From Syntrophaceae bacterium UBA2210 (GTDB taxonomy: Bacteria > Desulfobacterota > Syntrophia > Syntrophales > UBA2210), in contig DCUQ01000010.1 of the NCBI GenBank assembly GCA_002327865.1, positions 65,659 through 96,993 of the forward strand: a stretch of DNA of 31,335 nt, given 5' to 3'. Below, in pieces: positions 2,353 to 30,562 of this stretch (positions are counted from its first letter, which is position 1; each line of letters begins with the position of its first letter). A program made the translations under genes and the position numbers. Under the pieces are notes generated by a model, which did no database searches, was not told where the DNA came from, and was given only the letters and a program-made list of their open reading frames with translations.

Positions 2353-3315
2353 ATGATAAAGAGTCGTGTATGTTCTATTGCTGTTGTAATAATCGTGGCT
2401 TTTGCAATATCAACATATATTTATTATCAACCTTATTCTCTCAAATTTCTAAAAAATGTTAATCTCGTAAATCTCATTTTTCTAATTATGATAAGAATTC
2501 TATTTCAGGTAGTCAATGGACTGTTACTTCGTGAATTTGCTTCCAAGTTTGAAACGTTTCTAAAACCAAAAGAGTGGTTCGGCCTTTCTATTGTTACGAC
2601 AATGGGAAATTACATATCCCCTTTTTCTGGCGGAATGCTTGCCCGCGCTGCTTACTTGAAACATCGCCACGCTTTTCCTTATACACAATTCGCCTCACTT
2701 CTGGCGGCAAGCTACCTGATATATTTCGGAGCCATTGGTGTGGTGGGTTTTATTACTGTAATAATATCTGGAGAAGCTTTAGCGTTTTATTGGCAGATGG
2801 TTTCGTTTTGGGTTGGGGTTATTCTAATAATTTCAACATTTATTATACTTCCAACAAAAAGATTTCCATGGAACAATCGCCTAACAAATATTATTAACAG
2901 TTCAATGAACGGGTGGGCTTTTATACAGGCGGACAAGGCTCTCCTCTTTAAAGTGGCGATATATACTCTGATAGGTATTTTTTTAAATGGACTCTCTTTC
3001 TGGATAGCATTCATGGCCTTAGCGGACTTTCCTATCTCTTTTGGAGCAGTTTTTCTCATAAGCTTGATTTCAGTTTTTTCCATTCTGTTCAATCTGACAC
3101 CCAGCAATTTCGGAATCCAAGAGATCATTATAAGCTTAACTTCTGGAATATTTGGCATTGGAACCGGCATAGGACTGATGGCATCTTTGCTAATTAGGAT
3201 AGCGTCCCTTATCCCAGCCTTTACCCTGGGTCCGATTTTCAGCTTTGTCCTTACCAGCGAACTAACAAATAATACAAGAAGGAATAACAATGATAATAAA
3301 AGACAACGGATTTGA
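2353..3315 (+). CDS. UPF0104/LPG-synthase-type integral membrane protein
   Basis: A 320-residue protein made almost entirely of hydrophobic helices (about eight), with the family's conserved region near the C-terminus, TPSNFGIQEIIISL. This matches the lysylphosphatidylglycerol synthase TM region/UPF0104 superfamily, members of which occur in glycan operons and are thought to move or use lipid-linked intermediates. The catalytic LPG-synthase domain (soluble GNAT-like C-terminus) is absent, so lysyl transfer is unlikely. AAGGA stands 6-8 bases before the ATG. The 3' end overlaps the next gene by 26 bp, so the two are probably co-translated. A transport role in the local glycan pathway is inference. 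Confidence 0.75.
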   Translation: MIKSRVCSIAVVIIVAFAISTYIYYQPYSLKFLKNVNLVNLIFLIMIRILFQVVNGLLLREFASKFETFLKPKEWFGLSIVTTMGNYISPFSGGMLARAAYLKHRHAFPYTQFASLLAASYLIYFGAIGVVGFITVIISGEALAFYWQMVSFWVGVILIISTFIILPTKRFPWNNRLTNIINSSMNGWAFIQADKALLFKVAIYTLIGIFLNGLSFWIAFMALADFPISFGAVFLISLISVFSILFNLTPSNFGIQEIIISLTSGIFGIGTGIGLMASLLIRIASLIPAFTLGPIFSFVLTSELTNNTRRNNNDNKRQRI

Positions 3316-5383
3316 TCTGAATATCAAGTGGCGGTTCCCCGACGGGAGAAAATACGCGTTTGCTTTTATTGCCCTCTTTGTATTCCTGATTATCATTTAC
3401 GCAAACAGTTTTCACTGCACGTGGCAATTTGACGATAAGCCCAATATCGTTGAGAATAATCATATTTTTCTAAAAACGCTAGACTGGACTGAGATCAAAA
3501 AAACATTCTATGCTCCAATGATAGATAAGATCTCACGTCCACTGTCATATTTCAGTTTTGCCCTGAATTACTATTTCGACGAACTTAATGTCTTTGGTTA
3601 TCATCTTGTCAATTTTATTATCCATTATCTATCGTCAGTCTTTCTATTCCTTTTCATATATAACACACTGAAGCTTCCAGTTCTCAGGGAGCGATACGAA
3701 CCAGTATCGTACGCTGTAGCGCTTATGGCCACATTTTTATGGGCCACCAGCCCGGTACAGGTTACCGCCGTTGCTTATATTGTACAGCGAATGGCCAGTA
3801 TGGGGGGACTCTTCTATATTATGGCCATGTACTTCTACCTTAAAGGAAGAACCACGAACCGGCCGTGGAAATGCGCTCTTTTCTGGGTACTTTGTATCCT
3901 TTCAGCAACATCCGGTTTTCTCACCAAAGAAAATGTCATTATGTTGCCGATAAGCATATGGTTATACGACTTGCTGCTGATCCAAGGTGCGACACGTGAG
4001 AATATCAGAAAAAATGTGAAGTTTGCCGTCCCTGTGATTTTACTCGTAGTTGTCATCGGTCTTTTTTATACGGACATTTCATCACTCTTAGCCGGCTATA
4101 AAAACAGGCCATTTACGCTAACTGAAAGGCTCCTGACTGAACCCAGGATCATCATCTTTTACATAACTCTTCTTCTCTACCCAATCAGTTCGCGACTGAC
4201 TCTTATCCATGATATTGAAGTATCAAGCTCATTTCTGGCACCATGGATTACTCTTCCGGCTATTGCTATTATAATTATACTTATCACCATCGCAGTATAT
4301 ATCTCCCGAAAAAGACCGCTCATATCTTTTTGCATTCTTTTCTTTTTTTTAAATCACGTCATTGAAAGCTCATTCCTCCCGCTTGAGTTGATTTATGAAC
4401 ACAGAAACTATACACCTTCCATGTTTTTCTTTGTTCCGATAGTTATTTTAATGATTTATGTAATAAATTATTTCTCTTACAAGAAGACAATCCAATTTAC
4501 AATGGTAGCCGTCTTTACTTTTCTGCTGGCGGCACAGGGACACACTGTCTTTGTACGTAATGATATCTTTAAGCATCCATTGCTTTTGTGGTCCGACAAT
4601 GTGGAAAAGACTCCCACACTAAGTCGCCCATATAATAATCTGGGAGCCGCTTATTGGAATCTTGGCTTTTATGACGAGGCTTATAAAGCTTATTCCAAGG
4701 CATTGGACTTAAACAGACACTCAAATCTTCTAAACCTGGGGGTAACTCAATGCAACCTTGGGATTCACCATCTCTATGTAACAAGACAATATGACAAGGC
4801 AGTAGAGTATTTTACATTGGCACTTAAGGCTTATCCAGGATACAGCCCAGCCAGTCAGGGACTCGCCATAAGTTTTATACATAAAGGCGAAACTCAAAAA
4901 GCCAGAGAAGTCCTCATGGATGCCTTATTATCATGGCCTGATAGCGCCGATCTGCATCATACCATGGGCTTTGCCCTTCTGAAGGAGGGGAAATATGATC
5001 AGGCTAGAGAGGAGGCCTTACATGCACTCTCTATAAAACCAGACCTGACAAATGCTCTGAGTGTTATCGCGGAAGTCCACCGAAGAAAAGGTAACTACCA
5101 GTTGGCAACTATCTATTGGAAGGGATATCTCAAAAAGAAGCCGGAAGATATTGAGGGTAATCTCGCATTGATCGAGCTTTACTTCCGGCAGAATGATTAT
5201 GATTCCCTTTCCGGGACCATAGGAAAACTAATGAGTATCAAGGGATCAAAAAACTGGTACGAGTTTATCGAGCAGCACTTGAACGATACTAATACTCAAG
5301 CCTATACACCTGATCCGGAAGAGATTATTTCCATCATTGCCGATAACCTGGATGATCAGCTATATAACTGCCGTAAGAAATAA
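3290..5383 (+). CDS. TMTC-like GT-C membrane glycosyltransferase with C-terminal TPR repeats
   Basis: This 697-residue protein has a multi-span membrane half (about residues 23-430, roughly ten helices) followed by tetratricopeptide repeats from about 445 to 650; the first reads PYNNLGAAYWNLGFYDEAY. In the first extracytoplasmic loop, just after TM1, there is an Asp-Asp pair (D48-D49, in QFDDKPNIVENN), the placement used by GT-C enzymes such as eukaryotic TMTC O-mannosyltransferases. The segments VTAVAYIVQRMASM and YEHRNYTPSMF are typical of the bacterial TPR-DUF1736-like relatives. Likely role: transfer of a sugar from a polyprenyl-phosphate donor to a protein or glycan outside the inner membrane. 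An AGAAGGA ribosome site precedes the ATG inside the upstream gene. The gene converges on the pilins, making pilin glycosylation an attractive but unproven job. Confidence 0.72.
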   Translation: MIIKDNGFDLNIKWRFPDGRKYAFAFIALFVFLIIIYANSFHCTWQFDDKPNIVENNHIFLKTLDWTEIKKTFYAPMIDKISRPLSYFSFALNYYFDELNVFGYHLVNFIIHYLSSVFLFLFIYNTLKLPVLRERYEPVSYAVALMATFLWATSPVQVTAVAYIVQRMASMGGLFYIMAMYFYLKGRTTNRPWKCALFWVLCILSATSGFLTKENVIMLPISIWLYDLLLIQGATRENIRKNVKFAVPVILLVVVIGLFYTDISSLLAGYKNRPFTLTERLLTEPRIIIFYITLLLYPISSRLTLIHDIEVSSSFLAPWITLPAIAIIIILITIAVYISRKRPLISFCILFFFLNHVIESSFLPLELIYEHRNYTPSMFFFVPIVILMIYVINYFSYKKTIQFTMVAVFTFLLAAQGHTVFVRNDIFKHPLLLWSDNVEKTPTLSRPYNNLGAAYWNLGFYDEAYKAYSKALDLNRHSNLLNLGVTQCNLGIHHLYVTRQYDKAVEYFTLALKAYPGYSPASQGLAISFIHKGETQKAREVLMDALLSWPDSADLHHTMGFALLKEGKYDQAREEALHALSIKPDLTNALSVIAEVHRRKGNYQLATIYWKGYLKKKPEDIEGNLALIELYFRQNDYDSLSGTIGKLMSIKGSKNWYEFIEQHLNDTNTQAYTPDPEEIISIIADNLDDQLYNCRKK

Positions 5384-5500: not shown

Positions 5501-5890
5501 CTACGGTTTTTCCCAATCTTTGGTAACAGCAGTCGCAGCGGCAAAGTCCGAACCGGCCTTGCCGCCAACCGTCACCGTAGCTGCACTGGTATTAGTTCTG
5601 GCAAATGTGTATGAGAACTCGTCACTGGCAGGCTTATTTGCATTAGCCATGGCAACAATAGCCGTCATGGTAGCCGAACCGTTTGCCATCATCTCTTTCG
5701 CGTAAGCCAAACTCATGGTTGCACTCCCTTCAGCAAGGGCACCTTTCATGGCTTTTCCCCTGGCATCGGCTGTTATGTCCATAAGCTTCGGCACTGCCAC
5801 GGCCGCCAAAATTCCCAGAATAACCAGAACCACTATGAGTTCAATTAAAGTAAAACCTGCCTGGTTCTCATCAGAAGAAATTTTTCTCAT
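5501..5890 (-). CDS. MshA-like type IV pilin, distal copy
   Basis: A 129-residue prepilin. The leader of 12 residues (MRKISSDENQAG) ends at the Gly before FTLIE, the prepilin-peptidase site with Phe at +1 and Glu at +5. The hydrophobic assembly helix follows (FTLIELIVVLVILGILAAVAVPK). The PK-x4-x3-DAR pattern and following short domain resemble MSHA pilins. The mature form would be 117 residues with no cysteine, so it lacks the usual disulfide-bonded D-region. AAGGAG stands 11 bases before the ATG. From Tyr63 to Lys124 the coding DNA is identical to the neighbouring pilin. No convincing promoter was found in the 188 bases upstream, so expression may depend on read-through from the proximal pilin. 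Confidence 0.93.
   Translation of the reverse strand: MRKISSDENQAGFTLIELIVVLVILGILAAVAVPKLMDITADARGKAMKGALAEGSATMSLAYAKEMMANGSATMTAIVAMANANKPASDEFSYTFARTNTSAATVTVGGKAGSDFAAATAVTKDWEKP
5520..5704. repeat. 185-bp perfect direct repeat, copy A (3' half of distal pilin)
   Basis: Every base of 5520-5704 matches 6098-6282 (offset 578). Identity breaks at both edges: 5519 T against 6097 C, and 5705 A against 6283 G. Beyond the upstream edge the codons for MSLA still encode the same residues with synonymous changes. The repeat covers codons Tyr63 to Lys124 of the pilin. Confidence 0.97.
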
Positions 5891-6010
5891 TATTTCTATT
5901 GCTCCTTAATTAAGAACACGAGAACCCACTCATCTTTCCGCACCTTTTCAAGAAAACAATTAGTCTTTCGGAACAAGAGAAAGGCAAGAAGAACAATTGC
6001 TTACGGTCAA

Positions 6011-6045
6011 AGAAAGAACGGGGTGAAAATCGATCTCACCCCGTT
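6011..6045 (-). terminator. Intrinsic terminator between the two pilin genes
   Basis: On the minus strand AACGGGGTGA pairs perfectly with TCACCCCGTT (10 bp, plus coordinates 6036-6045 and 6017-6026) across a 9-base loop, followed by CTTTCTTTG. It lies 34 bases past the stop of the proximal pilin and before the distal pilin, so it could make the second pilin a minor transcript. The pyrimidine tail is interrupted by C, so partial read-through is plausible. Confidence 0.72.
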
Positions 6046-6078
6046 TTGACTCCCCTATATACATCTCAAAGACTGCGG

Positions 6079-6462
6079 CTATGGCTTTTGCCACGACTTG
6101 GTAACAGCAGTCGCAGCGGCAAAGTCCGAACCGGCCTTGCCGCCAACCGTCACCGTAGCTGCACTGGTATTAGTTCTGGCAAATGTGTATGAGAACTCGT
6201 CACTGGCAGGCTTATTTGCATTAGCCATGGCAACAATAGCCGTCATGGTAGCCGAACCGTTTGCCATCATCTCTTTCGCGTAGGCTAAGCTCATAGTCGA
6301 CATCCCCTCAGCAACAGCTCCTTCTAGAGCCTGCTTCTTGGCATCATCCATCATATCCATATACTTAGGCACCGCTATTGCCGCAAGGATACCCAGTATG
6401 ATCAGGACCGCGATGATCTCGATCAACGTAAAACCTTTTTGATTCTTAAGCTTTCTTTTCAT
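6079..6462 (-). CDS. MshA-like type IV pilin, proximal copy
   Basis: A 127-residue prepilin with a 10-residue basic leader (MKRKLKNQKG) cleaved before FTLIE, then a hydrophobic helix (FTLIEIIAVLIILGILAAIAVPK) and a small head domain. The mature protein is 117 residues, the same as its neighbour, and also lacks cysteines. GGGAGG stands 8 bases before the ATG. It is first in transcription order, has its own sigma-54 promoter about 55 bases upstream and is followed by a strong hairpin, all fitting the major subunit. The N-terminal 62 codons differ clearly from the distal copy, whereas the remaining head-domain codons are identical DNA. The head ends AVTKSWQKP against AVTKDWEKP in the other copy. 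Confidence 0.94.
   Translation of the reverse strand: MKRKLKNQKGFTLIEIIAVLIILGILAAIAVPKYMDMMDDAKKQALEGAVAEGMSTMSLAYAKEMMANGSATMTAIVAMANANKPASDEFSYTFARTNTSAATVTVGGKAGSDFAAATAVTKSWQKP
6098..6282. repeat. 185-bp perfect direct repeat, copy B (3' half of proximal pilin)
   Basis: Base-for-base identical to 5520-5704, same orientation. The sequence between the copies (5705-6097) contains the divergent 5' half of the distal pilin and the terminator region, so the identity is confined to the head-domain codons. Confidence 0.97.
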
Positions 6463-6528: not shown

Positions 6529-6544
6529 AGCACTTTTCATGCCA
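6529..6544 (-). promoter_or_regulatory. Sigma-54 (-24/-12) promoter of the proximal pilin
   Basis: Read on the minus strand the element is TGGCATGAAAAGTGCT. Against the RpoN consensus (TGGCACG-N4-TTGCW) it keeps the GG and GC pairs with the required 10-base spacing and matches at most fixed positions; the C at position 6 and the first T of TTGC differ. The GC falls at 6530-6531, putting the transcript start near 6518 and a leader of about 55 bases before the pilin ATG, which has its own GGGAGG. A sigma-54 activator gene lies directly upstream. Confidence 0.78.
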
Positions 6545-6866: not shown

Positions 6867-8228
6867 CTACAAATTTTGTTGTTTTTTAAGCGAGGGCACA
6901 TCGATTTTGTGTTTCCTGATACGGTGCCAGAGACTGCGCTCCTTTATGCCAAGGAGTTTTGCCGCTTTTACCTGTTTGCCATCCGCCTTGACGAGGGCTT
7001 TGATTATCATGTTCTTTTCCAACTCTTTTAGCCGGTCGTCTATAGATATTCCTTCTTCAGCCGGGTCGTGATCGAATACTTCGTCATTATTCTCTCTCCG
7101 TATATTCCCCGGCAGATGCGAAAGCTCGATAATACCCGATTCCGTCATCAGGGCGGCGCGTTCTATCACATTTCTAAGCTCTCTAACATTGCCAGGCCAT
7201 GAATATTTCTCCAGTTGTTCCAGGGCATCCCGGGAGATCGTCACCGGTCCCGGTGCATCTTTCAAGAAATAATCGGTCAGGACGGCAATGTCTTCCCGCT
7301 CTCTTAGCGGAGGCAATACCAGGGGGAAAACATTGAGACGGTAAAACAGATCTTCTCTGAAGTTCCCCTCCTTCACCATTTTGAAAAGATCCTTGTTTGT
7401 GGCGGTAATAAGGCGGACATCCACTTTTATGGGGTTACTGCCGCCGAGACGGTCGAATTCCCTCTCCTGCAACACGCGAAGCAGCTTTGCCTGGATCGCC
7501 GGAGACATATCTCCTATCTCGTCTAGAAATATAGTGCCGCCGTCGGCAAGCTCGAATTTACCATTCTTCCGCGCGGTTGCTCCCGTAAAAGCGCCTTTTT
7601 CATAACCGAACAGCTCGCTTTCAAGAAGGGTTTCCGGTATTGCGACACAACTGATCTTTATAAAGGGTTTGTTCTCTCGGCGGCTGTGCTTATGGATGCT
7701 CGTGGCTACCAGTTCCTTACCCGTGCCGCTTTCGCCCATGATGAGAACTGTTGTATCGGTCGGTGCCACCTTAAGGATCTGGTTGAATACACCGCGCATA
7801 ACCCTGCTCTGGCCGATTATTTCCGGAAAAAGTTTCTCCGCCTCGACCTTTCCCAATATATCGGTAACATCCCGGAATACCTGTTCGTAATATCCGATAT
7901 CATCATTGGGTCTTTCCCTTTTCTCGGCACTAATCTCCTGGAATACCGACAATTTTTCCGTTTCTTTCACAAATTGTTTGACCGGTTTCAACACGATCCA
8001 TACTACCAAGAAACCGCACAGGAAAGTCAGTATGCTTATTACACCCCCCCATAAGATATGCCTTATCATAAAATGGTATGAATCGGCCGTATTAAGGGCG
8101 ATGATAAAAGACAGGATCGATATCCCGGAGAAAATACCGGGAACAATAACATAAAGACTTATACGGCAACCGGAACCTGTTGTAAAGGATCTTCTTCCGG
8201 CAGTTTTATTATCTGTCTGCTGGAACAT
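6867..8228 (-). CDS. Membrane-anchored sigma-54 activator (AAA+ enhancer-binding protein)
   Basis: A 453-residue protein from the ATG at 8228, 7 bases after the mshG stop; the longer frame would overlap mshG and start with a non-conserved segment. It has no receiver domain. Instead two transmembrane helices (about 24-46 and 57-80) are followed by a HAMP-like linker (about 80-125). Then comes the full AAA+ core: Walker A GESGTGKE (165-172), GAFTGA (212-217), Walker [10 protein letters not shown] and an arginine-rich sensor region. A Fis-type helix-turn-helix forms the C-terminus ([20 protein letters not shown]). Intact GAFTGA implies real sigma-54 contact. Likely target is the pilin promoter just downstream. 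The short loop between the helices leaves little periplasmic sensor, so the signal may come from membrane partners such as pilin, as PilS senses PilA. Confidence 0.9.
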
Positions 8229-8235
8229 TTTTAGA

Positions 8236-9453
8236 TTAAACCATCTTTGTGATATCCCACATGGGAAGGAATATGGCCAGGGCAAAGAAACCGACCACCG
8301 CGGCAAGGGATACAATCAGGATCGGACCTATGGCATCAGACAATCCTTTCACGGCATATTCGACTTCATCGTCATAATGAACGGAAACTACGCGGAGCAT
8401 CTCTTCAAGTTGACCCGATTCTTCTCCAACCGCCACCATATCCACTATCATGGGTGTAAAATATTTCGCCGAACGCAGGGGGGCGGATATCCCCCTTCCC
8501 TCTTCGATTTTATCTTTCAGATTGGAGAATTCCCTGCTTATAGCCGCGTTACCGATAACCCCTGAAAGGATTTCAAACGCGTTCAGAACGCTGACTCCGC
8601 TCGCCTGCAGGATGGAAAAGATGCTCGCGAAACGGGACATCGCCGCCTTGACAAAGAGATTTCCTATAAGTGGAAGTCCTAAAATAAACCTGTCCCGCAC
8701 ATATCGTCCCGGCTCCGTTTTGAACCAGTAGCTCAGCCCCACAATAACGAGTACAAGTCCTCCCAGCAGCAGGTACCAGTAATCATGAAGAAACCGGTAA
8801 AGATAAAGGCAAATACGGGTGGGCAGGGGAAGATCCAGTCCCACCTTGTTGAATATGTTTACGAATTTGGGGATAACAAATGTAAGAAGGACCAAAAAGG
8901 CTCCTGCAAGGGCAACCACGACAATAGCGGGATATTGCAGTGCCGACTTTATATTCGATTTTACCTTATACTCATGATCGAGAATGTAAATCAGCCGCTC
9001 GAGGACATTGGTAAGAGTACCGCTGGACTCACCTGCTTTTATCATGCTGACATACAGGGGAGGGAATATGTTGGGGTGTTTACCGAAAACTTCATGGAGA
9101 GCAAACCCTTCCTTTATCTCGAGAGACATGGAAGCTATAACACTCTTTAATTTCAGGTTTTGCGTCTGGTTCTCGAGCACCTCCAGCGCCTTGAGTATCG
9201 ATAATCCGGCGATAAGCATGGTCCTGATCTGCTTGGTAAACAGTATCAGCTCATCCATTTTGACGGTTGTCAGTTTCGTCTGCAACCTGTGTAGAAATCC
9301 GCCGGACATGGCCGATTTCTGTTCCGTAACATCGGATGGAATAAATCCCTGTTCGTTCAGCAGGTTCTGTACAGCTTCCACCGATTCAGCTTCAATAACG
9401 CCGGTAACGGAAGCTCCTTTTTGATTGATCGCTCTGTAAGAAAAGCCTGGCAT
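8236..9453 (-). CDS. mshG: Type IV pilus/MSHA inner-membrane platform protein (PilC/GspF family)
   Basis: A 405-residue polytopic protein with the duplicated T2SSF domain: first copy about 65-190 ([20 protein letters not shown]), second about 270-395 ([25 protein letters not shown]). Membrane helices lie near 170-192, 215-240 and 375-398. The N-terminal 60 residues ([18 protein letters not shown]) are the family's cytoplasmic lead. It couples rotation or pulling by the ATPase to pilin extraction from the membrane. Length and motifs are typical and nothing is missing. It follows the ATPase by 16 bp. Confidence 0.95.
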
Positions 9454-9469
9454 TCGGATATGTCCTTCC

Positions 9470-11182
9470 CTATACCATCATGACAGTCAAAATCGCTTCT
9501 TCGAGTGTTGTTATACCCCGGATTACCTTATCAGCGGCATCGTCTTTTAGGGTTTGAAGTGTCCCCGCCCTTTTCGCTGCCCTGGTAATATCTTGCGCCG
9601 TCTTACCTCTCAAAATCATATGCTGGATCATATCATCGATCTGCAAGACCTCGAAAACACCTGTGCGTCCTCTATATCCGGTATTCATGCACTGGATACA
9701 TCCCCTGCCGCGCTGAAAATCGGCACCTTCAACCTGGTCCAGTCCCCACGCTTTCAGGGCATCCATAGGGGGGGTATACGGTTCTTTGCAATAAGGACAG
9801 ACCGTTCTTACAAGTCGTTGCGCGAAAGAAACCAGGAGAACGGAAGATATGAGAAAGGGCTCTATCCCCATTTCGGCAAGTCTTGTTACCGCGCCCGCCG
9901 CGTCATTTGTATGAAGCGTGCTCAAGACCCGGTGTCCCGTAAGGGCCGCCTGCGTAGCAAGACCCGCCGTTTCGCTGTCTCTGATCTCCCCTACCAGCAT
10001 GACATCCGGGTCCTGGCGGAGAATCGACCTGAGTCCGCTGGCAAAAGTCATACCCGCCTTACGGTTAAGCTGTACCTGGCGTATATGTTCCACTCTGTAT
10101 TCAACAGGATCTTCCAGGGTAATGATATTTATATCGGGTTTGTTGAGTTCCTTCAGAATCGCGTAGAGACTTGTACTTTTTCCGCTGCCCGTCGGCCCGG
10201 TGCTTAGTATCATGCCATAAGGTTTGACTATGGCCGACTCTATCTTTTCCCTGTCTTCCTCGGACATCCCGAGTTGCTTGAGAGAGTAAACTCCCGAGCT
10301 CATGTCGAGAAGCCGCAACACGATATTCTCTCCATGGATAGTGGGAAGTGCCGATGCCCTGATGTTAATCTCCTTTTTCTCCATTCTGACCGTAAACCGA
10401 CCATCCTGCGGGATCCGTGATATGGATATATCCATATTCGAGAGAATCTTCACACGCGATACTATAGGCAGCAGGAGAGATTTGGGAGGTGATGGAACTT
10501 CCCGAAGTTTACCATCGACACGAAACCTGAGCTGAGCTCTATCCGCCTCGGGGCTGATATGAATATCACTCGCGCCTTCGCGAACGGCCTGTGCGATGAT
10601 GGAGTTTACAATACGGACAACCGGCGCCTCTTCGGCCATATCCTGGAGAGAACTTACACGAACGTCTGTTTCTCTCGCCGCGGTTATTTCCTCTTCGACA
10701 TCAACCTCTACGTCCCCCATCCCCTTAAGTACCTGTTGCAAGTCTCCGGACTGAGTACCATATGTAAGGGTAAGAAGCTGATTTATCTCCTTATCCGAGC
10801 AAACCACGGGAGTTACTTCCATATCAGTGATCATCTCTGCATAATCAATGGAATCAATGTCCATGGGATCAGCCATCGCCACGGTAAGAAGTTTCCTCTT
10901 TTTCTGCAAGGGAACCACCTGGTGTTTCTGAGCAATATCGAACGGGATCAGATCTGACAGGTCCTGATTTATCGGGTATTTTTGGGGATCATATTTTTCG
11001 ATATTCAGTTGCTCGCTGATCTGGTCTATGATCTGATCCTCTCTGACCCAACCTTCCTGGATCAGATATTGCCCCAACTTCAGCCCTGCTTTTTTCTGGC
11101 CGATCAAAGCCTGTTTCAACTGATCTTCAGTCAGCACCCCGGCGCTTGTCAGCATTTCTCCTAATTTCTTTTTTACTCTCAA
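9470..11182 (-). CDS. mshE: Pilus assembly ATPase (PilB/MshE/GspE family) with tandem MshEN c-di-GMP-type motif
   Basis: A 570-residue hexameric assembly ATPase. Residues 6-29 and 35-58 are two 24-residue motifs of the form KLGxxLxxxG-x6-L/I-xxx-L/I-xxQ separated by exactly five residues (30-34). This 24-5-24 layout is the one by which the MshEN domain of MshE and related ATPases binds c-di-GMP. The usual Arg opening the motif is Lys in both copies, so affinity may differ. Further on are Walker A GPTGSGKST (329-337), Asp box (ITLEDPVEYR), Walker B (DPDVMLVGEIRD, 391-402), His box (TLHTNDA) and zinc-type cysteines at 462, 465, 495 and 498. It energises pilus extension from the cytoplasm. No retraction ATPase (PilT) is present in the window. 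Confidence 0.95.
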   Translation of the reverse strand: MRVKKKLGEMLTSAGVLTEDQLKQALIGQKKAGLKLGQYLIQEGWVREDQIIDQISEQLNIEKYDPQKYPINQDLSDLIPFDIAQKHQVVPLQKKRKLLTVAMADPMDIDSIDYAEMITDMEVTPVVCSDKEINQLLTLTYGTQSGDLQQVLKGMGDVEVDVEEEITAARETDVRVSSLQDMAEEAPVVRIVNSIIAQAVREGASDIHISPEADRAQLRFRVDGKLREVPSPPKSLLLPIVSRVKILSNMDISISRIPQDGRFTVRMEKKEINIRASALPTIHGENIVLRLLDMSSGVYSLKQLGMSEEDREKIESAIVKPYGMILSTGPTGSGKSTSLYAILKELNKPDINIITLEDPVEYRVEHIRQVQLNRKAGMTFASGLRSILRQDPDVMLVGEIRDSETAGLATQAALTGHRVLSTLHTNDAAGAVTRLAEMGIEPFLISSVLLVSFAQRLVRTVCPYCKEPYTPPMDALKAWGLDQVEGADFQRGRGCIQCMNTGYRGRTGVFEVLQIDDMIQHMILRGKTAQDITRAAKRAGTLQTLKDDAADKVIRGITTLEEAILTVMMV

Positions 11183-11215: not shown

Positions 11216-12859
11216 TTAATGAGATGCCACACTGGAAAAGAAAACCGTGTTTTCATCCCAATGTGTGATAATTTTTGCACCCGAAGAAATAATTCGGGGC
11301 AATTCCGCAATAGCATTCTGAGCGGATTCTTCATCGGCAAAGCTCTTTTTTAAAATAACCTCAAACTTCAGACCTTCTCGATCATTCCAGTAGGGAAATA
11401 TCTGAATCGGAAATGACCGTTTCGGATAATTTTTATATAATCTGTAAATATCTTCCAGACTGTCTTTCTGTGCCACCGATACCCAGCAGACCCATTCCGA
11501 TGCGGGACAAAAATCGGAGGGAAATGCCGGAAGGTTAACTGTTTCCCCCGGTATGACCCAGTCTAGATTTTTTATATGGGGATTAGCTACCCCTATCAAA
11601 GCGATCTTATCCGGAGTACAATCTCTGCCGTATACAATCTGGGCTATTTTACAAACGGTTTCATCCTTTTCTATTTGCAATCGTCCCAGTACCTCCGGAC
11701 AATGTTTCGCGGGTAAAAGCTCTTTTACGGGAAGCGAAGGTCCAGATTCTGCCGAATGATTCTCCATGGATAAAGATTCTTTCACGGCAAGCAGTGGTTC
11801 CATGGAAACTTTCTCGGGAACGGCGAGCGTGTCAGGCGGTTTGACTGCGATCCCGTTCTCCGATTCCTTCAACATTCCACCTTCATCAGGACTGAACGTC
11901 GACTTCGCCTCATGCGATGACAGATATTCAACTGCTGTAATAAAACGCTCATACCCGAACTCAAAGCCAAAGAACATAACGACTGTCATGATTGCAATGC
12001 CGGTAACCCATGCGGCTCTAACCGGCCGTTCACCTGTTTTACTCCTGCGAATACATGAGCGGACCAGCGTCCATCCCGCCCTCGAACGATTCTGAATAAT
12101 CAGCGCGAGAATAACCTGGTGGCAAAGCCCGACTATTTTTCTCGGATATCCTCCAGTGGCCCTATATATCGCCCAGAGCGCGGGAAATGTGAAATGAACT
12201 GATCTGTTATCACCATATTCACTGGCGATATTAAGGCGATACTGTATCATCGCCCTCGCGTCGGTAAAGGTCATCGGTTGAAGATTATAAGAAAAATTAA
12301 CCCGGTCCGCGAAACCGGGGTTTTCTTTGAGTATCCGATAAAACTCTTTCTGGGCGAAGATAATTATCTGTAAAAGTTTATACTCATTCGTCTCATAGTT
12401 GAGGAACTCCCGTAACATTTCCAGACAGAAATCCGGCAATTTCTGTCCCTCGTCTATGATCAAAACCAGCAGCTTGTTATCGGTAATCCCTTTTTTAAAG
12501 AGATAATTTTTTATTTCTTCCCTCAACTGCCACTCGGTAATGTCCGGCTTCTCCGTATCAAGGCCCAGCATTTCACTGACAGCACGTAAAAACTCGATCG
12601 GCTTGCTGAAATAGGGGTCAAGCAAAAGATACGTTTTAACATCTTCATCTTCGGAAAATTTTCGTATTATCTGCCTGCAGAGCGTGGTCTTTCCGGCTCC
12701 CACATCCCCTATAACGACATTAAGCCCCCGGCGCAAGCGTACAGCCAGTTCCAGGTTCTGTAAGCACTTTATATGCTGTGCTGATTCATAAAAACAGTCC
12801 GGGTCCGGGGAATTGGAAAAAGGCTCACTGGTAAAATTCAAGATCCCGTAATATTCCAC
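11216..12859 (-). CDS. mshM: ExeA/MshM-type AAA ATPase fused to LysM-like and SPOR-like periplasmic domains
   Basis: The start taken is the GTG at 12859, 8 bases after AAGGGG and giving VEYYGILNFTSEPF, the usual ExeA-like beginning; an ATG at 12865 is also possible. Numbering below counts from the upstream GTG at 12868. The cytoplasmic ATPase has Walker A GDVGAGKT (54-61) and Walker B LLVLIIDE (133-140). A single membrane helix lies at about 286-303. A low-complexity linker (about 320-390) precedes a LysM-like fold (about 396-450, ETVCKIAQIVYGRD to PGETVNLP) and a SPOR-like domain (about 457-545). ExeA/GspA proteins bind peptidoglycan and help place the secretin in the cell wall. Here both wall-binding modules share one chain, combining roles usually split between MshM/GspA and MshN/GspB-type proteins. 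Confidence 0.88.
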   Translation of the reverse strand: MEYYGILNFTSEPFSNSPDPDCFYESAQHIKCLQNLELAVRLRRGLNVVIGDVGAGKTTLCRQIIRKFSEDEDVKTYLLLDPYFSKPIEFLRAVSEMLGLDTEKPDITEWQLREEIKNYLFKKGITDNKLLVLIIDEGQKLPDFCLEMLREFLNYETNEYKLLQIIIFAQKEFYRILKENPGFADRVNFSYNLQPMTFTDARAMIQYRLNIASEYGDNRSVHFTFPALWAIYRATGGYPRKIVGLCHQVILALIIQNRSRAGWTLVRSCIRRSKTGERPVRAAWVTGIAIMTVVMFFGFEFGYERFITAVEYLSSHEAKSTFSPDEGGMLKESENGIAVKPPDTLAVPEKVSMEPLLAVKESLSMENHSAESGPSLPVKELLPAKHCPEVLGRLQIEKDETVCKIAQIVYGRDCTPDKIALIGVANPHIKNLDWVIPGETVNLPAFPSDFCPASEWVCWVSVAQKDSLEDIYRLYKNYPKRSFPIQIFPYWNDREGLKFEVILKKSFADEESAQNAIAELPRIISSGAKIITHWDENTVFFSSVASH

Positions 12860-12894
12860 ACACATCACCCCTTAAACAATCTTAAGGTGCTGGA

Positions 12895-14766
12895 TCAACC
12901 GGCGCTTTTTATGACAATGCATTTAAGATCCCGGATATCTCTTTCCAGTAAAGCTGAAACTGCCGCGGCTTCGCTATGAGTATGATACCCTTTCAAAAGA
13001 ACAACAAACCACTCCTGATTTGAAGAATCCATTGTTTCAGCCAGGGTCGGAGAGTATCCCATATCCGACAGTCTTTGTGTTACATTATCCGCGTTGATTT
13101 TTTCTTTAAAAGACGCGACTTGAATTACATACTCGCCGTCAGCTTCTTTTGCTTCCTTCGGGATCACCGTTTTTGCTTCCGGAAGATCCGGCTTATTCAA
13201 TCCACCGGTCGAAGGTTCTTTCTCAATCCCGCCCTGTTCTCCCTTTTCACCGACCATATCAGGTTTCAATATGTGAGGCGTGATAAAGATAAGCACCTTT
13301 TCCAGTTTTTTACCTTTGCTTTCACCCTTGAACAGATAACCCAGGCCCGGGATATCCTTCAACAGCGGCACGCCGGCGTCTCCTCCAGTATCTCTCTGTT
13401 TGCTGAGCCCCGATATAACGATCGTCTCGCCATCCCTTACTATCAACGTCGTATCCGTCTGTTTTTTAATGATATATGGATTTCCCTGGACATCACGCGA
13501 CTCATCGACCTCATCTTTCTTGACGAGTATCTTCATTTTCAATTTTTCATCGTCGATAACATGCGGCGTAATTTCCAGGCGGAGAACCGCGTCTTCCCAT
13601 TTAACTTCCTGATCACCGTCTTCATAAGAAACAAAAGGTACTCTTTCACCATTTTCGGTAAACGCCATCTGATTGTCGAGTGTGGTTATAGAAGGACTGG
13701 ACAGGATATTCACCTTGCCTTCAGACTCCAGCGCGCTCAATTGCATCTGGAGAATATTCCCCCCTATCGTTCCGAATGTAAGAGCAAGCGAGGACAATCC
13801 GCCGGCTGTTGCTATCGCACCCTCGCCGACAGGAAAGTCAACCACCATATCTCCGGTTCCGCTACCGGCAGCGGAACTGTTTCCTGTAGCGGAATAAGGA
13901 TAAGCTCCCGCCATTCCACCGTATGACCCACCCCACTGGATCCCCAGCTCCCGGGCGGTTTCTTTGGTTGTCTCGACAATGTTTGCCTCTATCCGGATCT
14001 GGGGAGTAGGTTTATCGATCTTGCTGACCATGGGAATGATTTTTTCAAGATCGCTCCTGGTCGCCTGGACAACCAGCGAATTCGTATGCTTGTCTATCAT
14101 CACCGATCCGTAAGGCTCACCCTTTTCATTCTTGGTCAGAAAGCCCCCAATCGTCTCCTTCAGCTTATCAGGGTCCGCGTAATCAATGGGAACGACCATA
14201 GTCAGCAAAGGAGACAACCTGTTACGGAGAATCTGCTGCTCACGTTGTTCTCTTTGAATCTTTTTTAATTCAAGATCATTTTTCAGGTCTGCGACTGTAG
14301 TTATCCTTATGATATCTCCATCCCATACATATGTAAGCATTCTGGAATGCATAATGCTGAGAAACGCCTCATCCCAGGGGACCTGTTTGAAATCCACGCT
14401 TACCTTGCCCATCACCTCGGAGTTGATTATTATATTCTGATCGGCCGCCCTGGACAATGTACGAAGGACAACATTTATATCCGCGTCACGCATTACAAGT
14501 GTTACTTTTACGGTTGGAAGAACCTTTTCCTCCTTTTTCACCTCACCTGCCATGCCGGGCTCATCGGGTATTTCCAGCGAGCGAACCCTGGAAACAGGTG
14601 ATGTACCCACGGATTCCTTTGCTGCGAGATTCCATTTATCAAAAAACGAATCTTCCTTTACTTCCTTCGTACCGGCACAGCCCATAACAAACATTCCGGT
14701 TATAACCAGCAAAAACAGCCGCGCCATTTTTCTCTCTACGATTACCCTCACCGCCATATCCTCCAT
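12895..14766 (-). CDS. mshL: Outer-membrane pilus secretin (MshL-like) lipoprotein with C-terminal SPOR domain
   Basis: The protein is 623 residues from the first ATG; a GTG at 14751 sits 8 bases after GGAGG and may be the true start. A lipoprotein signal ends at VMGC (Cys30), so the ring subunit is lipid-anchored and may not need a pilotin. Residues about 85-155 form an STN/N0-like domain (VTLVMRDADINVVLRTLSRAA), 190-260 an N1/secretin-N domain, and about 265-500 the secretin core with the signature VPLLKDIPGLGYLF. A Gly/Ser/Ala-rich insertion (about 275-325) lies in the gate region. After a charged linker, residues 543-623 form a SPOR domain (DGEYVIQVASFKEKINADN), a fold that binds denuded peptidoglycan. 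Pilus secretins usually carry N-terminal AMIN domains for this, so a C-terminal SPOR is unusual. Confidence 0.93.
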   Translation of the reverse strand: MEDMAVRVIVERKMARLFLLVITGMFVMGCAGTKEVKEDSFFDKWNLAAKESVGTSPVSRVRSLEIPDEPGMAGEVKKEEKVLPTVKVTLVMRDADINVVLRTLSRAADQNIIINSEVMGKVSVDFKQVPWDEAFLSIMHSRMLTYVWDGDIIRITTVADLKNDLELKKIQREQREQQILRNRLSPLLTMVVPIDYADPDKLKETIGGFLTKNEKGEPYGSVMIDKHTNSLVVQATRSDLEKIIPMVSKIDKPTPQIRIEANIVETTKETARELGIQWGGSYGGMAGAYPYSATGNSSAAGSGTGDMVVDFPVGEGAIATAGGLSSLALTFGTIGGNILQMQLSALESEGKVNILSSPSITTLDNQMAFTENGERVPFVSYEDGDQEVKWEDAVLRLEITPHVIDDEKLKMKILVKKDEVDESRDVQGNPYIIKKQTDTTLIVRDGETIVISGLSKQRDTGGDAGVPLLKDIPGLGYLFKGESKGKKLEKVLIFITPHILKPDMVGEKGEQGGIEKEPSTGGLNKPDLPEAKTVIPKEAKEADGEYVIQVASFKEKINADNVTQRLSDMGYSPTLAETMDSSNQEWFVVLLKGYHTHSEAAAVSALLERDIRDLKCIVIKSAG

Positions 14767-14772
14767 GAAAGG

Positions 14773-15252
14773 TTATTCCTCTGATAACGGGATGGTAACT
14801 CTCATCCCTTTTATTTCCCCTTCAACGACTACTGCAGAGGGGCTTATATGTCTGACAATATATTCGGCGATTTCCAGTTTATCACCGATTTCGTAACTGA
14901 CGTTGTTTATAATCGCTATTCTTTTCCTGCCGATCTCCAGATAACCGTTGTATTTCAGCCCCAGATCCCCGACAGTCACCGAAGCAGCTTTCTGTTCATA
15001 GAAGGGATCCCTGTCCCAACTACCCTCGGCACTACTTACAATAGCGGCATAAACCGGGTAAGAACCGCGGATTTTCAAAACCTCGGAAGCATCCTTTATG
15101 AGATTGTCTGTTCCGGTCACACTTTTAAGGGATACGGACTTTTCCGGCTTCGATGACGGAGCAATAAAGAAGCTGTAGAACCCGTACAGGACGGCGATCA
15201 GCATTATACCTATGATCACTATCTCCCTTGTCGATACCTTAACCCTTTTCAT
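14773..15252 (-). CDS. PilP/GspC-like pilus alignment protein (MshK position)
   Basis: A 159-residue bitopic protein: short cytoplasmic basic lead, one membrane helix (about 11-31, VIIGIMLIAVLYGFYSFFIA), a linker, then a small beta domain from about 90 (LGLKYNGYLEIGRKRIAIINN to VVVEGEIKGMRVTIPL). That domain has the short-strand pattern of the homology region of GspC/PilP, which links the inner-membrane PilM-N-O complex to the secretin N0 domain. It is not a lipoprotein, unlike classical PilP, and is closer to GspC/MshK in topology. Its stop lies 6 bases before the secretin frame, so the partners are probably made together. Confidence 0.75.
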   Translation of the reverse strand: MKRVKVSTREIVIIGIMLIAVLYGFYSFFIAPSSKPEKSVSLKSVTGTDNLIKDASEVLKIRGSYPVYAAIVSSAEGSWDRDPFYEQKAASVTVGDLGLKYNGYLEIGRKRIAIINNVSYEIGDKLEIAEYIVRHISPSAVVVEGEIKGMRVTIPLSEE

Positions 15253-15303: not shown

Positions 15304-15846
15304 CTAAGCGATTGCCAGCCGTACCGTAAGAAAAAACTGCTTGTATACGGATTCCTGCTTTATTTCTATCGATTCTACACGTTCCAGAAAGGGCGTTTTC
15401 CCCAATTCCACCAGAAACGTTCTGAAGTCGAGAAACTTGCCCTTCAACTGAATGTCAACCATTATATTGCTGGATTTCTCCGTAAAAGCTAACGCATCCG
15501 GCCTCACTGATACAACCTGCATGTTGCATTCATCAGCCATTTTCTCAAATAATTGGGCAATTGTATCTATATCATTCCTTGAGAGTCCCTCCGTATCGGG
15601 TACAGGTAGACTTGAGTGAACCTCGCCCTGGCTTTCCTTCACCAGTTCGTTATAAAGGGGAAATAGAGTTTTCTGCTTTTCCAAATGCTCGGAAACCTGA
15701 GCAACTCTCAGATCCATATCTTTTATCGACTTCTGACACGGATAAATAGCAACAAAGTAAAAAATAACTGCGATAACAAGACATATCAGAAGGTAGATCA
15801 CGCTGCGGCCTGGAATCTTGTCAACATGTATCTTGTTTTTCTTCAT
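15304..15846 (-). CDS. pilO: PilO-like pilus alignment protein (MshJ position)
   Basis: A 180-residue bitopic protein with a membrane helix at about 14-34 (VIYLLICLVIAVIFYFVAIYP), a coiled coil at about 35-75 and a ferredoxin-like periplasmic domain with the PilO pattern (MADECNMQVVSVRP, DIQLKGKFLDFRTFLVELGKTPFL). It dimerises with the PilN-like part of the upstream protein to form the inner-membrane alignment complex. Its ATG overlaps the upstream stop as ATGA, so translation is coupled and stoichiometry with the PilM-PilN fusion is probably fixed. Confidence 0.9.
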   Translation of the reverse strand: MKKNKIHVDKIPGRSVIYLLICLVIAVIFYFVAIYPCQKSIKDMDLRVAQVSEHLEKQKTLFPLYNELVKESQGEVHSSLPVPDTEGLSRNDIDTIAQLFEKMADECNMQVVSVRPDALAFTEKSSNIMVDIQLKGKFLDFRTFLVELGKTPFLERVESIEIKQESVYKQFFLTVRLAIA

Positions 15847-17678
15847 TTCAATTCCTCAGCAAAATCAACAAAAAGAGTGAAGTGAAGCGCTTCGCTCGCA
15901 TGAAAAGGCCCCACGCTACTTTTATCGATTGAGACTTTGTTAAACATGGGAGACTTGCTCAGTGCCAATACATATTTTGCCAGGACAGGTTCAAAAGAAC
16001 CGGGAGCACCTTCAACGATTCCCTGTATAATCATTCCTTTTGCGGGTTTTTCCCCTTCTTTTTTAACGGCCATTTCTTCGCCGGCTTTAACAGACAGGAG
16101 ACTTAATTTTTCCGGGGTCAGCTTCGAAAGTTCTCCTATAATCGCCAGGCCGAAGTACCTGTCTTTGAATTTCTTTAGGGTAAGCCGGTTTCCGGTAATT
16201 TCAGTAACAAGGTTACGGGCGGGGGTTTCAATTGCCTGGATTCCCTTGTCCATCTGCTGTTCAAGGCCTGCCAGCTTAACCTCTTTCTTATCGACAACAC
16301 CCCCCAGCCAGAAGAAAATCCCGAAGAGAAGCAACATGACTACTGCAAAAGTTGAAATGATTACCCTGTTAAATGTTTTGATATTCTTAAGCTTTTCCTT
16401 GTCACTAAACGGAAAGATAAGATTGGGGGTATAGGCTGTATCAGACAACGCCAGGCCGAGTGTAGACACAAGGGAGACCCGATGGGAAACGGATGCATCC
16501 GATGCGGCGTTACCGGAGTATGGATTTTCCGGAGACAGAGGATCCAGCACCTCACTCCCGATTCTCAGCTCATTACCGACATAGTCGATAAAGGGCCTGC
16601 AAATATCCATGTCACAGAAAACATATATGAAACTTACGCGATCACTGCCAAGAGTAACCGCATAATGTTCAAAGGTTCTTTCAACCTGCCCTACAAGCCG
16701 CTTCAGAGCGGGACTTATCATCTCAAATATTTTTTCTTTATCAAGACCGAAACGGGCACTCTCTTCAACAGGTTGAGCATCGTAACCGAGAGTGTAAATC
16801 AATCTCTTCGCGTTATCCAGGGTCATCATGTCCGATGAGGAAGCGGCATATTCTTCCATAAGAGAATCCGCCATACTCTCGACCCCCGCTTTTATAACGC
16901 GCGACATCGTAAGGTTCCCGTCGGAAAAAATGTCTATACGCGATGAATCGTTTCCGATGTACAGCGTAGCCACTGTCTGATCAACGGAAGATATCCAGTC
17001 GGTCCTGAAAAGATTTTGCAGCGCAAAGGGGATAAGTGTGATGCCGGTCAATGGAAAACCGATCTCGTTAAAGAGATCTTCCATCTCCTCGATTTCACGT
17101 TTCGGGGCTATGCATGCCAGAACCGACAGCTTTCTGACGCCGCTTTCAATCACTTCGCCCTGAATTTCAAAATCGAGAACCGTCTTTTCTTCGCTGAATG
17201 GCGTGTTCTTCTTAACCGTCCATGAAACAGCGTTTTCAAGTTGTTTTTTACCAACTTTGGGTATTCGGATATTTTGTACGTCTACCTTTTCCGACTGTAT
17301 CAGACCCCACAAATCAACAGCTTTCCCCGAACCGCAGAAGAGATCAAGTTCTGATCTCAAGAACCCGGCAAAAGCGGGGCTGTTGCTTGACATGCCGGCT
17401 TTTATCGGAACTTTTTTATAATCGAGCAATTCCCGCTGACTGCCGGAAAGTCGTCCTACTTTGACCAGTTTCAGTTCATCTCGCCCGATATCTACGCCGA
17501 CGGATACATTTTTACCTGTGAGCAGGCCCGGCACATTATTTTTCTTTGTCTTTCTGGATTGAGATGTAGTCGGAGTGTCAGGCAATTTACCCTGCTGATC
17601 GTCATTCCGGATAAGATCAAGCAATTTTTCTGTAGAAGAAATTTCCTTTGAAGAAGACAAAACCAAGCACCCCCCCAT
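15843..17678 (-). CDS. pilM: PilM-PilN fusion protein (MshI/GspL-like inner-membrane pilus component)
   Basis: About 611 residues from the ATG at 17678; a TTG at 17660 lies 9 bases after a run of G and would also serve. A disordered lead (about 1-55) precedes an actin-like PilM domain beginning VSVGVDIGRDELKLVKV (about 59-75) and running to about 410. Then comes TPNLIFPFSDKEKLKN, the counterpart of the INLLP segment by which free PilN plugs into PilM. A membrane helix (about 441-463) and a PilN-like periplasmic domain (about 464-612) follow. PilM and PilN are separate in most type IV pilus systems; fusion gives a GspL-like architecture with a complete actin-like domain. It anchors the assembly ATPase side to PilO and PilP. 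Confidence 0.87.
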   Translation of the reverse strand: MGGCLVLSSSKEISSTEKLLDLIRNDDQQGKLPDTPTTSQSRKTKKNNVPGLLTGKNVSVGVDIGRDELKLVKVGRLSGSQRELLDYKKVPIKAGMSSNSPAFAGFLRSELDLFCGSGKAVDLWGLIQSEKVDVQNIRIPKVGKKQLENAVSWTVKKNTPFSEEKTVLDFEIQGEVIESGVRKLSVLACIAPKREIEEMEDLFNEIGFPLTGITLIPFALQNLFRTDWISSVDQTVATLYIGNDSSRIDIFSDGNLTMSRVIKAGVESMADSLMEEYAASSSDMMTLDNAKRLIYTLGYDAQPVEESARFGLDKEKIFEMISPALKRLVGQVERTFEHYAVTLGSDRVSFIYVFCDMDICRPFIDYVGNELRIGSEVLDPLSPENPYSGNAASDASVSHRVSLVSTLGLALSDTAYTPNLIFPFSDKEKLKNIKTFNRVIISTFAVVMLLLFGIFFWLGGVVDKKEVKLAGLEQQMDKGIQAIETPARNLVTEITGNRLTLKKFKDRYFGLAIIGELSKLTPEKLSLLSVKAGEEMAVKKEGEKPAKGMIIQGIVEGAPGSFEPVLAKYVLALSKSPMFNKVSIDKSSVGPFHASEALHFTLFVDFAEELK

Positions 17679-17774
17679 CACTGAAAACTACGGAAACCAT
17701 AAAATCAATTTTTAAATAATAGAACGATTCTTCACAATAAAAATGGCTTCCCGCCTGTTCTTGAAAACACTCTT

Positions 17775-20273: not shown

Positions 20274-22391
20274 ATGCTCATAAAAAAAGATCCGATGGCC
20301 GGTAACGGGGAAATAACTGAAAGCACGGAAAGGGAGTCCCATATCCTTTTCAGGCATCAGGATCTGGTTAAATTTCTTAAATCCGCAAACAAAATAAACA
20401 GGAAAAATCTTACAAATACCATAAATCACATCCATTTTACCGGCGGCCGATTGTGGGTTCACCTAAAGGATCCTCAATATGAAGAGGATATCCTTGTAAA
20501 GGTATATCCTGAACCATGCACCGGAGAAACGATAACCTGTAAATGGTCTGAAGAAAACAAAACAAGTTTCGGACACTATCGTTTTCTGAACCTGCTGATT
20601 GACGACGGTATGACAGCAATACTGGTTCCGGTAAAATCGTTACGTATTGATGGAAATTATTTCTCGATTAATTTGCCCGAAGCAGGCCAAGCCCTCAAGA
20701 ACCGGCAGGCCAGGCGCTATACATCCCAGGGGGTTACTGCCGAAATTACTCAAAGCGGCTTTCTCGCCAGTGGCTGTCTGCTGAATTTCAGCCCGTTTTC
20801 TTTCCGTGTCAGGGTTGCACCCGGCCACGGCGGTACCTTTCATTGGCTGAACGTAGACGAACCACTTGTCCTCAGGTTATACCGGGATGAAAAGATAATC
20901 TTTTCCGAATCCTGCAGGTTTATTAATCAGACAGGCAGTATGTCAGTGAAAGAAATCGTAGTTGCTCCCATTATCGATCAAATCAAGCGTTTCAGGAGCA
21001 GAAAAATACGAAGTCCCCGGACACGACTGGCTCCATCGTCCAGTATAACTTTCGAACACCCCTTTTCCGGCAAGCCGATGCAACTCGATCTGCATGACAT
21101 ATCCGTTACAGGATTTTCCATACATGAAAGAGAAGATGAATGCGCTTTGGTTCCGGGAATGATTATCAACAGCATCAACATTAACTATTCAGGCATATTG
21201 GCAATGCCGTGTACCGCCCAGGTTATATATCGCCGAAAAGAAAAAGGGGGAGTGTTCCGTTGCGGCATGGCGATACTGGACATGGGTATTGTAACTTACG
21301 GAAAACTGAACAACATACTTGGTAACATTCTGGATTCTAAAATCCATGTTTCAGAACGAATAAATATGGACGTCCTTTGGAATTTTCTTTTCGATTCCGG
21401 CTTCATCTATCCAAAGAAATATCATTTCATCCAACCTTACAAGGACAGCATCAAGGAAACGTACCGCAAGCTCTATCAGGAAATGCCTGAAATTGCTGCT
21501 CACATGACCTATCAGGAAAACGGCTGTATATACGGACATGTCTCCATGGTAAAGGCATATGAACGTTCATGGATGGTTCACCACCTGGCCGCTAAACCGG
21601 TACCGGGAGCCAGAACGCGTACCGGCATATCTTTGCTGAAACAAATAATCCACTATTTCGAGGGATTCTATCGCTTACCGGCCTACAAGATGGATTACTG
21701 GATATGCTATTACCGCCCCAGCACCAGATTTATGGATCTGTTTTTCGGAGATTTCGCGCGGCATTTCAGAAATCCCAGGGCTTGTTCGCTCGATCTTTTC
21801 GCGTACAAGGATTGTTCGACAGCGTCTTCACAGGAAAACCTGCCCGACGGGTGGTCGCTGCGGGAATATTCGAACTCGGACTTCCGGGAACTCGACAGGT
21901 TTTACAGGAACCGTTCCGGCGGTCTTTTGCCGGACATTTTATATCCGCAATATAGTCATTCAAACGATGAAACACTTGAAGAAACATACAAACGCTACGG
22001 CCTTGTCAGGAAAATGAAAATATATTCCCTGGTTCACGGTGAGAAGCTGAAAGCGGTACTCGTTGCCAATCAGTCGGACCTGGGACTGAACATGTCCGAA
22101 CTTTTGAACGGCATCAAGATTATAATAACCGATCCGGAATACCTTCCCTGGGACATATTGTCAAGCGCAGTCGGAAACCTGACGGATATATATGAGCTTG
22201 AAAAAATCCCTCTTCTGGTATACCCCCATTCGTATCTGGAAAATAAAAATATACCGTATGAAAAACAGTACATACTGTTTATCATGGATATGCAGTACGG
22301 GAAGGAACTTCTGGACTATCTTAAGGGACGATTGAAAACAAAGATCAGATTTTTTATTAGATTTCTCATCAAAAGGTATTTTAATAAATGA
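20274..22391 (+). CDS. PilZ-domain protein with C-terminal GNAT-like modules
   Basis: A 705-residue soluble protein. Residues 143-225 contain a degenerate PilZ-like copy (NRQARRYTSQG to NFSPFSF). Residues 246-345 contain a better one with an Arg-rich lead (RSPRTR) and DISVTG (275-280), the D-x-S-x-x-G motif that binds c-di-GMP. The N-terminal 140 residues may be a YcgR-N-like partner fold. The C-terminal half (about 365-700) has no obvious motif but looks like two GNAT-type acyltransferase folds in tandem; the second starts LREYSNSDFRELDRFY (about 529-544). AAGGG stands 9 bases before the ATG. The stop overlaps the next start as ATGA, so it is co-translated with an HD-GYP phosphodiesterase. 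Catalytic role and substrate are not known. Confidence 0.7.
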   Translation: MLIKKDPMAGNGEITESTERESHILFRHQDLVKFLKSANKINRKNLTNTINHIHFTGGRLWVHLKDPQYEEDILVKVYPEPCTGETITCKWSEENKTSFGHYRFLNLLIDDGMTAILVPVKSLRIDGNYFSINLPEAGQALKNRQARRYTSQGVTAEITQSGFLASGCLLNFSPFSFRVRVAPGHGGTFHWLNVDEPLVLRLYRDEKIIFSESCRFINQTGSMSVKEIVVAPIIDQIKRFRSRKIRSPRTRLAPSSSITFEHPFSGKPMQLDLHDISVTGFSIHEREDECALVPGMIINSININYSGILAMPCTAQVIYRRKEKGGVFRCGMAILDMGIVTYGKLNNILGNILDSKIHVSERINMDVLWNFLFDSGFIYPKKYHFIQPYKDSIKETYRKLYQEMPEIAAHMTYQENGCIYGHVSMVKAYERSWMVHHLAAKPVPGARTRTGISLLKQIIHYFEGFYRLPAYKMDYWICYYRPSTRFMDLFFGDFARHFRNPRACSLDLFAYKDCSTASSQENLPDGWSLREYSNSDFRELDRFYRNRSGGLLPDILYPQYSHSNDETLEETYKRYGLVRKMKIYSLVHGEKLKAVLVANQSDLGLNMSELLNGIKIIITDPEYLPWDILSSAVGNLTDIYELEKIPLLVYPHSYLENKNIPYEKQYILFIMDMQYGKELLDYLKGRLKTKIRFFIRFLIKRYFNK

Positions 22392-30558: not shown

Positions 30559-30562
30559 TCCG

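Follow-up and report, generated by a model that had tools for sequence, protein, structure and literature searches.

Probable head-limited gene conversion between two tandem type IV pilin genes of a Syntrophaceae bacterium

Two tandem genes encoding MSHA-like type IV pilins, the upstream gene A and the downstream gene B, carried an identical head-coding tract behind clearly different stems. The most probable explanation (about 78% in our estimate, from sequence comparison) was head-limited gene conversion with two complete pilin genes as partners. It would be recent in this lineage and independent in the lineage of a second genome (G109), with the stems being older paralogues. The genes lie in a stretch of 31,335 nt, referred to here as the window.

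The pilin pair and its pilus cluster

Re-comparison of the two tracts confirmed the initial annotation, with exactly 185 bp and zero differences. The copies were 578 bp apart and belonged to the sole repeat family of the window at a minimum length of 30. In A, the tract covered nucleotides 151–335 of the 354 mature nucleotides, starting at mature codon 51 and ending inside codon 112; it stopped within both genes, and the last five codons before the stop differed between A and B. The mature proteins were of equal length (117 aa each), as had been noted. The number of differing N-terminal codons, given before as 62, was correct for B, where 62 prepilin codons precede the tract, and was 60 for A. 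The flanks had been described as widely different; this held for the leader-region flank (0.47), while the first 60 bases of the 3′ flank aligned at 0.68, random 60-mers having a mean of 0.48 and a 95th percentile of 0.57. The mature N halves (codons 1–50) of A and B matched at 100 of 150 bases (67%). At this identity the chance of a given 185-base identical run was near 3e-33; it was 8e-5 at 95% identity and 0.16 at 99%.

Both proteins matched PF07963 (E 5.6e-9 for A, 2.2e-9 for B) and had a class III signal peptide, with TIGR02532 and PF07963 above cut-off, Gly before the mature Phe1, and Glu5 and a hydrophobic stretch in the sequence. The best PDB profile match of A was the MSHA pilin MshA (9lab, E 2.3e-15), limited to the stem (residues 6–68). 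AlphaFold2 modelled A with a mean pLDDT of 91.2 (61-sequence alignment), placing helices at 13–68 and 73–82 and strands at 90–96, 101–108 and 120–125, so that a small beta-sheet head comes after a long N-terminal helix. As alpha1 ended at prepilin residue 68 in the model, with the head coming after it, the tract was predicted to span roughly eight residues at the end of alpha1 together with all but the last five residues of the head; the earlier reading of a homogenised surface half and a diverged 5′ half was upheld. Foldseek comparison of the A model with the PDB gave no match at E ≤ 0.001, and the top row was the pilin PilA4 (E 0.2).

Table 1. Features of the pilin pair and the pilus cluster in the window
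Feature	Position	Strand	Evidence or remark
Pilin gene B	5501-5890	-	129-aa prepilin, stem type FTLIELIVVL; ORF and translation
185-bp tract in B	5520-5704	-	identical to tract in A
Terminator-like hairpin between A and B	6017-6045	-	weak; one found, 1.2 expected in shuffles
Pilin gene A	6079-6462	-	127-aa prepilin, stem type FTLIEIIAVL; ORF and translation
185-bp tract in A	6098-6282	-	alpha1 tip and head; exact match to 5520-5704
Sigma-54-like -24/-12 element TGGCATGAAAAGTGCT	6529-6544	-	upstream of A, 67 bases before its start codon
Sigma-54-dependent activator	6867-8315	-	adjoins pilin genes; PF00158 E 3.1e-74
PilC/GspF-type platform protein	8236-9453	-	PF00482 E 8e-55; under NCBIfam cut-offs
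PilB/MshE-like assembly ATPase, c-di-GMP-binding N domain	9470-11182	-	PF00437, PF05157 (MshEN)
AAA ATPase of pilus cluster	11216-12868	-	PF13401 E 3.8e-19
Secretin with SPOR domain	12895-14766	-	PF00263, PF05036
Small pilus-cluster protein, weakly GspB-like	14773-15252	-	PF16537 E 0.0012, under cut-off
PilO/GspM-like protein, weak	15304-15846	-	PF04350 E 0.031, GspM E 0.0034, both under cut-off
PilM-like protein	15843-17681	-	PF11104 E 1.8e-11

A and B closed a type IV pilus cluster that lay entirely on the minus strand (Table 1). The AAA ATPase of the cluster is presumably ExeA/MshM-like. The cluster resembled the Vibrio-type MSHA pilus in the MshE-related c-di-GMP-binding motif of its assembly ATPase, which passed NF053729 (56.8 bits, cut-off 38), and some relatives are named MshA by a source. 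It differed from the MSHA pilus in other family scores: the assembly ATPase was below the cut-off of the PilB equivalog, and the secretin passed the PilQ subfamily (321.6 bits, cut-off 284.35) and did not reach the cut-off of the MshL-type model TIGR02519 (114.7 bits, cut-off 250.2).

The element TGGCATGAAAAGTGCT was the sole exact match to the sigma-54-like pattern in the window; with one mismatch allowed, 12 were found against 9.5 expected. Across the 35 tandem pilin pairs described below, a strict element of this kind stood upstream of A in 13, where shuffles gave an expectation of 0.01; the stretches separating A from B, which are shorter, had it in none of the 35. Because the element recurs upstream of A and is absent between A and B, A is probably the sigma-54-driven gene.

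Three further loci were recorded. A 697-aa TPR protein (3290–5383) converged on the pilin genes, and a 707-aa ORF was found in the same place in L001 (6977–9100), the two being compared by position only. A 705-aa protein with a weak PilZ match (20274–22391; E 0.0012, under cut-off) lay beside a GAF/PAS/HD protein. An anaerobic ribonucleotide reductase with an adjoining radical SAM protein (28468–31252) was present, as in an anaerobe.

Histories of stems and heads

The nearest named relatives were MAG proteins and one MAG contig labelled Syntrophaceae, Syntrophales or Syntrophobacterales. The stem of window A was 0.92, 0.92 and 0.94 identical to those of P0003, P0004 and P0005, and only 0.68 identical to the stem of B. 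In the stem tree (50 residues, 19 pilins), the B types split from the rest with weak support (79/68). AU tests on the stems rejected A and B as sisters in the window (4.2e-5) and in G109 (0.009); A and B of c18735 as sisters were not rejected (0.30), nor, at 5%, were the six window-lineage stems as one clade (0.061). These stem comparisons indicate that the A and B stem types are a paralogue split older than the window lineage.

In the head tree, the six window-lineage heads grouped with A and B mixed (99/97), and A of G109 grouped with B of G109 (94/87). AU tests on the heads rejected a clade of the four B heads (3.9e-53), one of the three window-lineage A heads (0.002), and window B with the sister B alone (0.027). 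Strict sisterhood of the window A and B heads was also rejected (p 0.0445), probably because the tested piece extended beyond the tract into the last five codons, where each gene has its own letters.

P0004 (A stem) and P0006 (B stem), taken as one genome because of their common longest contig of 2586994 bases, formed the nearest sister pair. Their heads were only 0.78 identical, so the identity of the window heads arose after the split from this pair. A search with P0004 through 155 genomes from the class and a draw of 395 from the phylum did not recover the DNA of P0004/P0006. P0005 had an A stem with a head end like that of the sister B, which points to another exchange. At the four tract sites where both sister A proteins agreed and the sister B differed, the window had the residue of B at one, that of A at two and neither at one, so that its head was a mosaic at these diagnostic sites.

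The order of A then B was also found in G109. Between window A and G109 A, protein identity was 0.82 in the stem and 0.56 in the head. Synonymous differences were counted in stem and head at codons for the same residue in both genes. Within genomes, A and B differed at 22/32 such codons in the stem and 3/60 in the head in the window (p 1e-10), and at 16/30 and 6/53, respectively, in G109 (p 6e-5). Between the two genomes, the counts were 8/38 (stem) and 16/33 (head) for the B genes, and 15/37 and 17/32 for the A genes. Compared within and between genomes, these counts showed that stems follow the gene type and heads follow the genome. For the heads of the window lineage and of G109, paralogues within a genome were more alike than orthologues between genomes, which is the pattern of concerted evolution.

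The comparison was extended to 35 tandem pairs, consisting of the window and 34 pairs from 32 genomes. The search covered 155 genomes of the order; 77 had a match and DNA was taken from 58, the other 19 having no two close same-strand hits among those listed. Pairs with a stem identity below 0.5 or a spacing above 1500 bases were left out, as were genes that contain N or fall outside 81–219 aa, and so was the G112 pair (L051), in which the upstream pilin changes frame after the stem, from about position 4816, by a frameshift or a sequencing error. The pilin pattern used for the pair counts admits Ser at position 8. The cut between stem and head at codon 50 was prompted by the window and applied to all pairs; cuts at 45 and 58 gave the same pooled picture.

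The 3′ half had significantly fewer synonymous differences in 8 of the 35 pairs (window, L007, L025, L008, L014, L013, L038 and L053) and significantly more in 2 (L047 and L056), and 25 pairs showed no significant contrast. After Bonferroni correction, two pairs remained on the lower side (the window and L007, which is G109) and none on the higher. The direction of the contrast, 8 against 2, was borderline (p 0.11). Exact matches of at least 30 bp occurred in nine pairs; the midpoint lay in the 3′ half in eight of these (p 0.055, borderline), and no such match was centred before mature nucleotide 143 in any of the 35 pairs. By count, a bias of tracts towards the head was therefore borderline. 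L008 was odd among the eight, as its head proteins were 0.57 alike and its exact match was mid-gene (nt 124–164). In L014, L025, L013 and L038 the stem proteins were 0.94–0.98 identical, and the contrast was seen at silent sites only.

Pooled over all 35 within-genome pairs, the synonymous difference was 0.519 in stems and 0.398 in heads. In the nine of these pairs whose aa identity was 75% or higher it was 0.375 and 0.136, a choice by overall identity that favours converted pairs. The 36 best between-genome comparisons, used as a control, gave 0.459 in stems and 0.500 in heads, so that heads have no intrinsic shortage of silent changes. Taken together, the same copying of heads has probably occurred in a few other tandem pairs.

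Two further observations were made. Compared between their genomes at silent sites, the A genes of L059 and L066 differed at 20/47 stem codons and 11/74 head codons, as though a head had passed from one species to another. P0025 and P0065 (both with a longest contig of 2794 bases) had the mid-gene block STCSIAFGKLMLSNSG in common and different heads, possibly through a shorter conversion tract.

Conversion and its alternatives

The identical tract, the trees, the silent sites and the differing sister heads gave good support to gene conversion between A and B. The initial annotation had proposed a recent, tract-limited conversion between tandem duplicates. This core stood and was amended in two respects: the difference between the stems is an old paralogue split, and homogenisation of heads is not unique to the window, G109 being the clear second case. 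Identity without any conversion, whether from a head under strong constraint or from partial duplication in the recent past, was scarcely credible. The 3′ flanks do align, as after tandem duplication; however, constraint on the protein leaves synonymous differences in place, the head is the faster-changing half between genomes, and no unusually low synonymous rate of the head was seen between orthologues in the between-genome comparisons. A partial duplication would need to have landed in frame inside an old paralogue that kept its last codons. It was also highly improbable that an assembler had merged two similar heads and made the identity exaggerated or false. The source contig of the window (181350 bp) is environmental or MAG-like, and near-identical repeats can be merged in assembly; however, both proteins were found on two contigs, perhaps not independent assemblies, merging heads a few bases apart would still leave near-identity to be explained, and G109 had a comparable contrast with heads that are not perfectly identical (differences at 6/53 codons).

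Antigenic variation of the Neisseria kind, with partial copies elsewhere feeding both genes, was judged improbable. In its favour, P0152 is an N-truncated pilin (a 78-aa head without a stem), and it has a longest contig of 20510 bases like P0050, which has an A-like start followed by a B-like stem; these two may derive from a tandem pair that broke or recombined, or from faulty assembly. On the other side, no third copy of the head was present within the 31,335 nt, searches of G109 and G034 with their own heads returned only the two tandem genes, and the lone G4-like match in the window, at 13927, was far from the pilins. What remains in closer contention is whether the conversion was neutral, with tracts falling anywhere in both genes, the head location due to chance and the matching heads unselected. 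This was quite possible, if short of an even chance: the counts of position were borderline, only two pairs survived correction, and several converted pairs have near-identical stem proteins. Against it, the stem was the more conserved half in 29–31 of the 35 pairs (amino acid identity higher in the N part in 29) and should for this reason be the better substrate for recombination, yet none of the long exact matches was centred before mature nucleotide 143. Gene conversion confined to the head remained the preferred reading, and we infer selection for matching heads. A diversity-generating retroelement was considered as well and rejected, as no reverse transcriptase was found by Pfam among the 22 window proteins and the two copies are identical.

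According to the preferred reading, A and B are old tandem pilin paralogues that close an MSHA-like pilus cluster. The two would have undergone homologous recombination, perhaps by a RecA-type process, in which the part encoding the head was copied from one of them into its partner and the stems, the last codons and the flanks were spared; the G109 lineage would have gone through the same independently. A, behind the sigma-54-like promoter, may be the main subunit. Head conversions may persist because a fast-changing head on two subunits must match in the fibre, or because an altered pilus surface, for instance as a defence against phages that bind pili, requires both genes to take on the new head. 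The near-identical stems of L013, L014, L025 and L038 argue against different stems with one surface as a general rule, and the copying of often-changing heads fits these four pairs better.

Relation to known systems and meaning

In Neisseria, silent partial copies (pilS) feed one expressed gene (pilE) and create variety, by gene conversion in its 3′ part, the break lying close to where the constant helix ends. The window pair is similar in the 3′ position of the conversion and the break near the helix end. It differs in that two full genes are made alike, with no cassette in the window, G109 or G034.

According to passages of PMC10628169, the fitted alpha1 portion of the two major pilins PilE1 and PilE2 of Streptococcus sanguinis is identical, and an exposed loop and the tail differ; the two co-occur in the same fibres, as stated in part of PMC6497953. 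Both cases have two pilins of one system with class III signal peptides. The arrangement is the opposite, with a common stem and differing head parts in S. sanguinis, and differing stems and an identical head in the window.

The tandem flagellin genes flaA and flaB of Campylobacter jejuni have different promoters and recombine within the genome, and their proteins, 95% identical overall, differ mainly in the terminal regions and at few residues of the exposed centre (passages of PMC5126078). As far as this text goes, the likeness lies in tandem filament-subunit genes under concerted evolution; unlike those flagellins, the window genes are type IV pilins with stems of 67% identity and the head alone identical. 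Exact-term searches of open-licence texts turned up no report of tandem type IV pilins whose concerted evolution is limited to the head. Concerted evolution of tandem filament genes is thus already known, and its confinement to the pilin head is what differs here.

A more far-reaching reading, that the pair is a two-gene device, was considered rather unlikely. In such a device B, on its own stem and probably less expressed, would acquire or evolve a different head, and conversion limited to the head would hand it to A, the main gene driven by sigma-54, or work in the reverse direction, and so let the heads match. The mosaic head of the window, P0005 and the likeness of heads between L059 and L066 fit this reading without proving it. 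If it were true, heads would evolve as modules that move between fixed stems, the opposite of variation by silent cassettes.

In known pilin recombination the head varies and the stem is constant; here, two different old stems appear to have received one head. If the pattern is wider, it would offer a natural test of which parts of a pilin must match in a mixed fibre. It would also be a warning that trees of whole pilin genes blend two histories.
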